DNA of 64,000 bases from Ectocarpus siliculosus. Lineage: Eukaryota > Sar > Phaeophyceae > Ectocarpales > Ectocarpaceae. The stretch lies in assembly GCA_000310025.1 (NCBI GenBank), contig FN649727.1, positions 2,004,816 to 2,068,815 of the forward strand. The letters are read 5' to 3'. Under the pieces are notes generated by a model that ran no database searches, was not told where the DNA came from, and was given only the letters and a program-made list of their open reading frames with translations. Each line of letters opens with the position of its first letter. Within the stretch, counting starts at the first letter, position 1. Below, in pieces: positions 5,607 through 14,055 of the stretch. Both the position numbers and the translations under genes were made by a program.

Positions 5607-8600
5607 CTAAGCCATGAGCATGTCCGCCGCTTTCTCTGCGATCATGATCGTCGGTGCCGCTGTTTGACCGCCGGGGATTGAAGGCATCACCGAAGAATCG
5701 ATCACCCTCAGCCCGGCAACACCCTTTACCTGTTTTTACAGTTTCGTGTAGACAGGGAAAAAAACACATTTAGACTACTTGAGTTTTCCGCACGTGCTTG
5801 CTCGAATAATTGTTTTAGGAACGGGTCGTGAATTCCATCGCGCCGCGTCAACACAGCACATGCCACAACGCAAACTAGCTCTTAATCAACTCACATCGCA
5901 ACACATTAAAAATCTAGTCCTGTCCATAAGGGTCCATCATGCCACAACAATGGAACAAGGATTGATATACTAGGTTAGCGCATTTCGAATTCCTATTTAG
6001 CGTTTGTTTGCAGTTTTCGTGGCACAGAGCAAGCACAACAGGTGACCGACCGCCAGGCGAGAGCACTCTACGTCCTTTCCTTTGCTAACTTTACCTTGAG
6101 TGCCGAGTTCACAACAGACATGTTGTCTGATTCTTCGCCCATCTTGCAAGTGCCAACCAAGGCGTTGGCGGAGTGCACGGTAGACTTGATGTACTCCGAG
6201 ATCTGGGCGAGGATGAGGAGAACATATCGGTCAGGAGGACTTCGCGACAGTGGTGGACACACCAGCGACGAACGGACAAACAGGTCCTGACAACACAGAA
6301 CACAGAACACCGTCGACTTGTACATCAAACCATACGCATACATACGGCCATTTTCGAATTTCGCTGAGATCGTCACCAGTGGCTCATCAGGAATCAACCA
6401 TAAGAGGCGACGAAAACGTGCTCTGCAAGAAAAAAGGGTGCAACAGATCGCACGAACCCTCAGAGCGTAAAGAAGATCCAGTTCGTCCACAAGAGTGCTC
6501 AGCAGGCCGATCCCTTCCCATGTCGAAAAACTTCCGCCGGAAAGGGGAATTTTCTTTACGTCAAGGGGGTGCAGAAGATCAATTCGTGTACCTCCTTGTT
6601 GTCTCTGCCGGGGAAGACTTCTTTGTCCACCATTTCTCCGAAGGCCTCCTGGTCGAACAGCTTTCGTGCCATTTCGATTCCGTTCGTCAAAGACGCCATG
6701 TCCTCCCTGGCAAGATCGAAAATCGCAGTGGAAAAGATGCACACCGTTGAGCGCAAGTGTCAGCATCGGTCATCGGGATCCTTGCAACCCTGTGCGTTCA
6801 TCGCGCGCGCCACTCAAACCGCAACAAAATATCCATGTAACGCGAACGTCAGAGTACGCTTCATGACTCCACCATGCCCTTCTTGCGCCAACATGGCGCA
6901 GTCTGTCGCTGTGATGACATGTATCGCCGCCAATCGCCCTTGCGATCCACAGCACAGAACGTGAATGTGACCGGCGGAAGGATAGGACTCACCCACTCTC
7001 AAGGTAGTTAGTGACGATGTGTGGCTTGTCGAACGGGTCCGAAGAACGCAGCTCGACGTGGCCTTCACTCTGCGGCCGGATCCCCACCACCTGAAACGAG
7101 ACACAAAACACCAAAAGCAGCAACAACAACATCAGTAGCAGTGGATACGTCTGGAACCGCAACAACAATCCCATCCAACACAGAGGTGCCACAAGGGGGG
7201 GATACACGCGCGGCCCCCCTATGTCAGGCTTCGCGGCGAACCGCGCTTAAATGGACCAAAATTCCTTCAGAGTTGGTTGTCGTGCCAATCACCTGCACGG
7301 TGACACCCGAAGGAGGCCTCCCCTTGGTGCCAATAGTGTTGTACGCCTTCACCCCGTCTGGGGTAGTGGATCTTCCAGGGACAAATCGCAACTGTTGGGG
7401 GACAGGCGGATGGGAGGGAGCCGAGAGGCTGACAGGTCAGCGTGCATGCGCTCCAAGAACGGCCAGCACATTGAAACAACTTGTAAGCAACCATGTAGCC
7501 AAGTATCCCTTTGGGTCATTCGGTCGCGCCTCGTATCGTAAGAAAGTCCAAATAGATCCAAGGGTGTGTGTACAGGCCAGTCACGCCGACCACCTGCAGA
7601 TCTGCCGCCGCTTTGTCAGGCGTGGTCTTGAAGAACGCGCCGTTCTCGCACCCTGGCGAGGTCAGCGGCCCAGTTCCCGTCAACAGCCACTGAAGGGCCG
7701 TCTGAAGACAAGCGAAAAAAAAAAAAGAAGTTGCAAGCCGTTAAGACAGTTTGTGGGAATAACTCGCCGTGAGCGCGGGGTCTGCTCGTGCTTTCAAATC
7801 AAATTGTTAAGGGGGAGGCCAACAATTTATCATCGGGGACACAGGCAATGGTGAGTTTCCCGACGACACACGGACGATACGAAGGCTAACAGCAACGAAA
7901 CGAGCAGGAGACCTCCCGGCATGTCACTTGGTGTGGCGTCTAGGCTGCTCGAACTTAACCTTACAATTTTGTTCACGTCCCCAGAGCCCTCCTTGAGAAC
8001 CTTGTCGGTGATGGAGATAGGCTTGTTGATGTCGGCCATCACGGCTGAGAACCGAAGGCAAACGCAAGACGTTGGCAAGAGCGAAGGGACAGTCGTGCGC
8101 GAGGCTAACTGTTAGCTTGCCGATAAGCCCGTCCAACCAATCCCCTTCCCATTGACTCGAGCTTTTTAATGTGCCTGGAACTCATTAGTTCTTTGGACGC
8201 ACTATGGATCTCCAAGGTATATTTACACATACACCGCCCATAGGTACAACAAGGCGGTCTGATGTTTACTACAAAGAGGAGGGGAGAGGAGCAGTTTCTC
8301 ACAGGAATACGAATTGTCACAACCAATCTCAAACCGCACGAGGCAAGGGTGCACATTCATTAACACAACATTGGACCGAAGTGACTCACTGACAGCGGGA
8401 TGGTCGCGGAGGTTCTTTCCGACCCCAGGCACATTGCTCTTCACCTCGATGCCCTGACAACACAACGCACATGTAAACATGCACGTCAACAGCAGGCGGT
8501 CTGGGCCACCCTACGTGCGTTTGCCTACCGAGCGCACCGTCACAGAAAAACGTACCCAGAAAGTGCGCAAAAAACTCCTTACAGCATGGCCGCCTGGGCG

Positions 8601-11600: not shown

Positions 11601-14055
11601 AAAATATGGTGGTTTGTAAACTGAATCACAGACGGGCGCTCAACAAAGAGGGTCGACAGATGACAGCCGGGGACCTACTCACAACCTGGAAGCACGGAAC
11701 CATCATAAACTGTCCAATAGAAGGAAGAAAAGCATACGGACAGGGCGTACCTTAGGATTGCGATGGGCATCTTGATATTCCTGTCATTGAATTTTTCCGA
11801 GCCGGCCTCCAACACCAGCACTGAATTGTCCTAACAAGTGGAGTACGCAAAGCGCCCGGTCAAAACGGTAGTGACGAGAGAGCAACACGATGTTTTCGAC
11901 CATTGGCGCTCGCATACATCCAACCATATCTAGCTCTAATAACTTCCGATCACAAAGCGCAGCGTCTTCATGACGTGACACTCCTCGAAATACTAGAGGA
12001 CGAACATGAGAACCATCGACAAGCCCGGAGATTCAATCGTCACATTACGCAGATAACGCGCGATACCGTGCACAAGGTCGCACGAGTCGCCCACCTTGTC
12101 GGCAGAGAGGCGGTTCGCCAGAACACACCCAGCCGTACCCCCGCCGATGATGATGAACTTGTGGCCTTCTTCCGCCACCGACATGCTCACCGAAGACGTC
12201 GCATAACGTGCTGCAGGCACTGGCCGTCGAAGTGGGAAGTAAAAAGTTGGCGTCAGTGTTGTGACGGACTAGCGCAGCAACACAAGGGAATAGAATCAAG
12301 GAATATGATCTACTGTGAAAGGTATTCTAATAGCGGATGACACCCGCTACCCGATTTCTGTCAGTAGCGCAGTCATCCCAACCATCGGAAAAAAAAATAA
12401 CAATCGAACGGACACCTGTGAGAGGCTACCGTTACGGTGCACCACCGAGAGTGTTTTCAGCCATAACCAGGGCACAGGAATCTACGTATTTCCATCCACC
12501 CTGATCGGCCCTGCCAGCATGTCCTTCCTGGGGTTGAGGATGTCACCCGTATCAAACCAGTAAATTCATCGGGCCCGAGACCCTACCCAGAGGGCAACGC
12601 CCAAACACTTCGTTCCTTGGATCTCCGCCAACAGGACGTCCTTTGGCAGCATACGCATCTATAGCAGAACCGAGTGTTCGTTCACAAGGACACAAAATAG
12701 GTGCCCAAAACAGCTTCTCGTAATTCCACATTCACGAGATACACAAGACCAGTCGGAAGGCATCGACAAACAGAAATCGTTGATTCTCGCTCTGGGCAGC
12801 AGTAGAGGCTGTTCAAAACAACTTGGAAGTACATATCATGAGTCTACCTCCACACGCCCCCTTTGAAATCAAGATATTCACACCATTCAAAATGCAAGTC
12901 AATAGAGCCAAAATGGCAGGCGCTCAAAAAGGTCGGTTTAGGCTTTCTACATAACTGCACCTTAGTACTCATATCACTAGAGGACACCCAGCAGCAGGAA
13001 GGGTGTGTTGCCGCGCTCACATCTGCTTCTGTGGTGGTGATATTGAGGATCTTAGCAATGGCCTACATTCTCCGCAAATCTCCGCAAATTGGATCGATAC
13101 CCGAGTGTCTTGTACAGCTTGTGCTCGCCGCCACTGACCTCAATCTCCTGAACTGCGGGTTGACAGCAGTAGTGGCTGATGTCACTATCTACTGCTGACG
13201 ACCCGCCGGTCAGGGGTTTACCGTCCGTGCCGGTGAGCGCAAGCTGTACAAGACACTCGGGTGTCGGTCAAACTTGCGGAGATTTGCGGGAATGTAGGCC
13301 ATTACTACGACCCTCGATATCACAACCCAAGAAGCAAACCTGAACGTGGCAGCACACACCACGCCTCTTCATGGTGTCCTCTACTGATAACAGCACCAAG
13401 GTGCAGTTAGAAACGGCGGGAAGGATGCTTTCTTTTTTTATACTCCTGTATGGCTTCAACTAAAACGTCGACTGCTAGACTCCCAGACTACGGAGCAGAG
13501 AGATCATACACAGAAAGAGTGTGCCTCATCGGCCCCACGAGGCAAACTGGGGCAGTTGGTTTCGAAACGTACACCAACAGAAGCAATAAGAGTGCGGGAG
13601 GATCTGACGCTGTACTGCCTTCGACTACAGCGTAGAAATTGGTAATCTAGGTAATTTCCAGCTGGTAATTTCCATCCGGTTTCAGGACCTGCTGCGTGAT
13701 AAGTTCCGTTTCAGCAAGTTGATGTCATCATGGTGATTTGTGCGCCGGAGCCTTTCAAGTTCTAAAATTCTCAGCAGCTTCGACTAACAGCAGTTGACAC
13801 AACCGAAATAGGAGCCCTTGAGGAAGAAACATGGTATGGCAGATGAAGCAAGAGGGGGAAAATATGCGGTTGCACAAGGAGAGCCATGTGTGTGGAGTCG
13901 TCAAGGTGCTCAAGACCTATGCGGTACATACCTCTTGTTGTTCCTCGTGCACTCCGACTTATGGTACTCGGAATCGACATTGGCGTTGGAGCAAGCATGA
14001 ACGCCGATGATACGGCACACATGGCCATTGCCATAAGCCCTTGAGCTGCCACCAT
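5607..14055 (-). CDS. FAP: Plastid-targeted GMC flavoprotein, probable fatty acid photodecarboxylase
   Basis: FAP is a light-driven FAD enzyme that converts fatty acids to alkanes or alkenes plus CO2 in algal plastids. Seventeen exons on the minus strand: 14055-13932, 12210-12095, 11830-11751, 11226-11139, 11000-10875, 10279-10097, 9835-9731, 9470-9384, 9116-9033, 8453-8390, 8044-7965, 7701-7594, 7391-7293, 7090-6993, 6706-6592, 6202-6095, 5729-5607. They join in phase to 595 aa. Exon 1 encodes a signal-like leader with SSAF, a heterokont plastid-import motif. The FAD-binding GGGTAG is at about residues 64-69; [16 protein letters not shown] and [16 protein letters not shown] are GMC hallmarks. 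Cys397 in [10 protein letters not shown] and Arg417 in LRFVPG match, in context, the Cys/Arg pair essential in Chlorella FAP (Cys432, Arg451). Near the end GGQ replaces the GN of choline dehydrogenases; His529 is in [13 protein letters not shown]. The alternative is another GMC oxidoreductase; plastid leader and Cys/Arg context favour FAP. Confidence 0.87.
9125..9155 (+). repeat. Pentanucleotide microsatellite (ACGAG)n
   Basis: About six tandem copies of a GACGA unit lie just upstream (on the gene strand) of exon 9 of the photodecarboxylase gene, 9 bases or so from its acceptor. It is probably a simple length-variable repeat. Confidence 0.8.
12952..13409. repeat. Long inverted repeat (foldback) in photodecarboxylase intron 1
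   Basis: The left arm (12952-13139) and right arm (13222-13409) are reverse complements at roughly 75-80 percent identity by eye, with an 82 bp spacer. Matching blocks include TAACTGCACCTT, TAGAGGACACC, ATGGCCTACATTC, CCGCAAATCTCCGCAA and CCCGAGTGTCTTGTACAGCT. In the intron transcript this would fold into a hairpin of about 190 bp. It could be a foldback or MITE-like element, or two copies of one repeat inserted in opposite orientations. The apparent open frames on both strands here are just the two arms translated. Confidence 0.85.

Follow-up and report, generated by a model that had tools for sequence, protein, structure and literature searches.

A 17-exon nuclear gene very probably encoding a fatty acid photodecarboxylase with a putative plastid leader

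Fatty acid photodecarboxylases (FAPs) have been reported from many algae, and in Chlamydomonas both the enzyme and its product are located at the thylakoids (PMC8260119). The characterised enzyme used for comparison here is that of Chlorella variabilis (CvFAP; PDB 5ncc, 6yru, 6zh7). As described in passages of PMC13397541, in CvFAP the carboxylate that R451 holds gives up an electron to light-excited FAD, CO2 is lost and the radical is quenched, the proton coming mostly from R451 and water in simulations (R451 was the source in about 83% and C432 in about 10% of reactive simulations); the exact role of C432 is debated. Passages from other papers indicate that R451 is crucial for substrate positioning (PMC10065435) and sits at a distance of about 4.2 Angstrom from the flavin (PMC12448124), that replacement of C432 by serine strongly lowers or abolishes activity (PMC13097135), and that R451, C432 and Y466 are conserved in FAPs (PMC11664916). 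Heterokont and macroalgal FAPs, such as that of Ectocarpus, are expected to be the closest relatives of the protein described below by their secondary plastid, their leader and the FAP signature.

The window analysed here, a stretch of 64,000 nucleotides, carries on its minus strand a gene that is in all likelihood nuclear and intact and that encodes a FAP, a flavoenzyme of the GMC family, with a predicted plastid leader. The initial annotation had located start and stop exactly, with the ATG at 14055 and a TAG ending at 5607, and the 17 exons that it proposed do join in phase, in one frame with no internal stop and with GT-AG borders in 16 of 16 introns. The protein length that it gave, 595 aa, was wrong: the spliced join has a coding sequence of 1797 nt and yields 598 aa, with introns of 138 to 1712 bases, the longest lying between exons 1 and 2. 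Splice sites were set by eye from consensus and frame, after 17 peptide cores had been located, which gave the exons in the following list; a repeat element in intron 1 is included:

13932..14055, minus strand: exon 1, start codon and first 41 residues plus one base, the putative plastid leader; donor GTATGT
12952..13409, no strand assigned: palindromic repeat element of 458 bases inside intron 1, non-coding
12095..12219, minus strand: exon 2, beginning of the mature domain; FAD-binding GGGTAG at residues 67-72
11751..11830, minus strand: exon 3, with VLVLEAG
11139..11226, minus strand: exon 4, placed by splice consensus and frame
10875..11000, minus strand: exon 5, in the GMC N-terminal domain
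10097..10279, minus strand: exon 6, with a peptide stretch common to CvFAP
9731..9835, minus strand: exon 7, placed by splice consensus and frame
9384..9470, minus strand: exon 8, placed by splice consensus and frame
9033..9116, minus strand: exon 9, placed by splice consensus and frame
8390..8453, minus strand: exon 10, placed by splice consensus and frame
7965..8044, minus strand: exon 11, placed by splice consensus and frame
7594..7701, minus strand: exon 12, with Cys400 (CvFAP Cys432)
7293..7391, minus strand: exon 13, with Arg420 (Arg451), Tyr435 (Tyr466) and Gln451 (Gln486)
6993..7090, minus strand: exon 14, GMC C-terminal domain
6592..6706, minus strand: exon 15, ending at 6592 with donor GTACAC
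6095..6202, minus strand: exon 16, with His532 and Asn535 (CvFAP His572 and Asn575)
5607..5729, minus strand: exon 17, PGGQTAAP with Gln580 (Gln620); stop TAG

Homology to the GMC family, and to CvFAP within it, is plain. When an initial 564-aa version of the exon join was searched, the Pfam domains GMC_oxred_N (PF00732, 161 bits) and GMC_oxred_C (PF05199, 108 bits) both scored above their cut-offs, and the top PDB match was CvFAP with 523 bits, against 285 bits for the best non-FAP entry (8b7s). In blastp the final join shares 48% identity with CvFAP over 567 columns, and a full-length MAFFT alignment with the CvFAP chain, which excludes the CvFAP leader, gave 272 identities among 546 aligned residues, or about 50%. 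Taken together, the Pfam scores, the PDB score and the blastp identity indicate that the resemblance is not due to chance. The protein is predicted to have the GMC oxidoreductase fold and the FAD-binding motif that belong to a FAP; it has both in common with E. coli BetA and the bacterial GMC oxidoreductases. Since the fold is common to both kinds of enzyme, the gene might be that of a common alcohol or choline dehydrogenase of the GMC family with no more than a resemblance to FAP, and choline dehydrogenases were indeed the best models in NCBIfam. The window protein nevertheless scored below the cut-offs of these models, with 516 against 605 and, for the choline dehydrogenase (BetA) equivalog TIGR01810, with 456.5 bits against 732.1.

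The diagnostic residues bear directly on this question. The initial annotation had named Cys397 and Arg417 as the key pair, and had set their alignment with the Chlorella residues beforehand as a test of its own reading. The residues and their context were right and the numbering was not: they are Cys400 and Arg420, and they align with CvFAP Cys432 and Arg451 (Cys372 and Arg391 in the numbering of the 5ncc chain, to which an offset of 60 applies). Tyr435 likewise occupies the position of Y466. Among the CvFAP positions compared, which were drawn in part from published passages, V453, G462, T484, Q486, H572, N575, A576 and Q620 are identical as well, and so are I398, S573, G619, T621 and A623. 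Some pocket positions are unlike CvFAP: A457, S574 and G622 are replaced by Ser426, Ala534 and Ala582, S121, T131 and A171 are not conserved either, Y395 lacks a counterpart in the MAFFT alignment, and the cysteine and the arginine lie 20 residues apart against 19 in CvFAP, a gap one residue longer. With about half of its residues unlike CvFAP and these few pocket positions changed, the protein might be a FAP homologue that has kept the signature and has lost or changed its photochemical activity, for instance in a structural role or with another substrate. We consider this highly improbable, since the frame is intact and the published key residues C432, R451 and Y466 are all kept; the window protein very probably functions as a fatty acid photodecarboxylase.

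Relatives were then sought beyond CvFAP. The protein alone found no close relatives in viral_contigs or in genome_contigs. With the alignment of the window protein and CvFAP as query, viral_contigs gave no match and genome_contigs gave 34 bacterial loci, 28-40% identical. A search of plasmids returned 1224 records, none of which reached 60% identity; the 10 best places listed were 37-41% identical. The FAP signature was absent from all 34 bacterial loci of genome_contigs: the Cys, the Arg, His532, Asn535 and Gln580 each occurred in 0 of 34, and the Gln580 column held Asn in 34 of 34, whereas both FAPs, the window protein and CvFAP, have Gln. These loci are not an even sample, because they were picked by two peptide patterns, and bacteria with the signature may exist beyond them. 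When E. coli BetA was added, which has Phe and His at the Cys and Arg columns, the FAP residues were found in 0 of 35, and all 35 rows had Asn, not Gln, in this column of the C-terminal motif (one of the 35 is gapped at the Cys column, one at the Arg column and every one at Tyr435).

A tree of 37 GMC proteins was built with IQ-TREE from the 34 bacterial proteins, BetA, the window protein and CvFAP, the sole characterised FAP in the set. The placement with FAPs put forward in the initial annotation was borne out to the extent that the window protein and CvFAP formed a 100/100 pair apart from BetA and the 34 bacterial proteins; the protein thus groups with the one characterised FAP of the tree over the other GMC enzymes. 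The pair had a branch of 0.88, some other branches were long, several deep forks were unsettled, and a composition check marked the letter make-up of the window protein as unusual. The Cys/Arg alignment and this pairing together support the FAP interpretation, from which we infer light-dependent activity. The bacterial relatives at 28-40% identity could be quoted in favour of an ordinary dehydrogenase, but the Cys/Arg/Tyr set, the His-Ser-x-Asn motif and the Gln are present in the window protein and in 0 of 35 of these relatives, BetA included. Together with the pairing with CvFAP and the scores below the choline dehydrogenase cut-offs, this makes such a dehydrogenase extremely improbable. The observation made in the initial annotation stands as a whole, with small corrections to the length and the residue numbers.

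The probable FAP identified in this way also appears to carry a targeting sequence. The SSAF of the leader proposed in the initial annotation lies at residues 16-19 in exon 1, and the N-terminus is consistent with such a leader of the heterokont type: its first 41 residues combine a hydrophobic stretch with SSAF-MLAP, which is similar to the ASAFAP motif of heterokont plastid leaders. A filter for a hydrophobic stretch and an A/S-rich motif ending in AF, devised after the leader had been seen, was passed by 3 of the 753 ATG-led frames of at least 35 aa in the window, and by a single one of the 389 on the minus strand, which is exon 1. The other two frames that passed lie at 41582, which also resembles a real leader, and at 23627. 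These features suggest that the window protein may be imported into the plastid. Exon 1 is joined across the 1712-base intron, and an in-frame methionine, Met54 in exon 2, stands just ahead of the conserved domain; the main product might therefore start at Met54 and be a FAP with no leader, not targeted to the plastid. We regard this as quite unlikely, given that exon 1 has a GTATGT donor and the right phase, is leader-like and is the only minus-strand frame to pass the leader filter.

For a plastid-targeted FAP, we propose that the two-part leader would direct the protein into the complex plastid by way of the ER membrane, that the GGGTAG Rossmann fold would hold FAD and that Arg420 would anchor a long-chain fatty acid by its carboxylate close to the flavin. 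Blue light would excite the FAD, an electron would be taken from the fatty acid and CO2 would leave; back electron transfer, coupled to the donation of a proton by Arg420 and water, would then convert the alkyl radical into an alkane or alkene, with Cys400 probably joining in this final quenching step. A thylakoid location, by analogy with Chlamydomonas, is also expected for this FAP. Catalysis, plastid location and substrate are in this scheme predictions made from sequence.

No second FAP copy was found in the genome (189,456,909 bases, 492 contigs) by an exon-by-exon search, which weak matches may escape. The protein had 22 matches, 17 of which are the exons of the FAP gene, and the 12 best are among these. 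The remaining five, four on contig C17 and one on C170, were short stretches of 33-60% identity with a best E of 3.8e-10; considered as a second FAP, they were set aside as distant GMC genes, the C17 gene ending in PNGN where FAP has GGQ. On C26, a GMC match was obtained by Pfam alone, without a match to the FAP protein. The 458-base element in intron 1 has palindromic arms of 101, 68 and 37 nt and many relatives in the genome: 79 matches, a figure that includes the element itself and both strands, came from the scoring of 40 out of 307 candidates.

The initial annotation had called the gene valuable since few photoenzymes exist, which overstates its novelty in view of the many algae from which FAPs are already on record (PMC8260119). 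Among the papers listed by our literature search, none had a brown-algal FAP as its title subject; passages of PMC13101868 contain nothing on a brown-algal FAP, and a passage of PMC11985809 gives no more than a reference. Hydrocarbons were obtained from E. coli in the light by Moulin et al., as told in PMC8260119. Because FAPs are known from several algal lineages, the window gene adds a member and not a principle: it is a sound example, but an ordinary one, of a known enzyme family. The leader, the wealth of introns in the gene and the size of the genome suggest a brown alga. Activity of recombinant Ectocarpus FAP was reportedly described in Moulin 2021, and if the genome is that of Ectocarpus, the window gene may be the same gene.

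Heterokont plastids derive from a red alga. Red-algal FAPs have Lys at the Y466 position according to passages of PMC11664916, whereas Tyr435 matches the green FAPs. On an unlikely and tentative reading, drawn from one residue and one comparison sequence, the FAP of this lineage would not stem from the red plastid donor, and its source would be a copy of green type or one of the host lineage; alternatively, the Lys would be a late change in red algae. The full exon layout of a probable photoenzyme gene from a heterokont-like genome rich in introns is now at hand for expression and comparative work. The protein may serve as a further variant in the light-driven production of hydrocarbons, and the gene would offer a data point on the passage of FAP through secondary endosymbiosis.

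Intron 1 of the putative fatty acid photodecarboxylase (FAP) gene contains a palindromic element of 458 bases (12952-13409), which is a foldback, MITE-like element. A genome search aligned it at 67-85% identity with many further places in the genome, giving at least 79 matches, a count that includes the element itself and matches on both strands and for which 40 of the 307 candidates were scored. The same genome carries distant, exon-split GMC-family genes besides FAP at three loci, L037 (C17), L038 (C170) and L039 (C26). The gene at C17 ends in a C-terminal PNGN motif, whereas the FAP type has GGQ.

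The following other domain matches and open frames were located in the window.

688-1335, plus strand, piece matching gelsolin repeat
19597-20454, minus strand, piece matching DUF2009
32268-33437, minus strand, open frame resembling tryptophan/tyrosine permeases (PF03222, 112 bits)
47610-48524, minus strand, MutS domain V piece
50419-51063, minus strand, MutS domain III piece
56860-57522, minus strand, piece matching GWT1
61296-63236, plus strand, open frame of 647 aa with five RRM stretches

The two MutS pieces (47610-51063) probably belong to a single intron-split MutS homologue. For the RRM frame, the nearest match in a PDB search was hnRNP H/F. A further plus-strand frame, starting at 41582 and open over 60 codons, has the N-terminus MKTAFAVVALFAGASAFNGKG, which includes ASAF and looks like a plastid leader of the kind typical for heterokonts.
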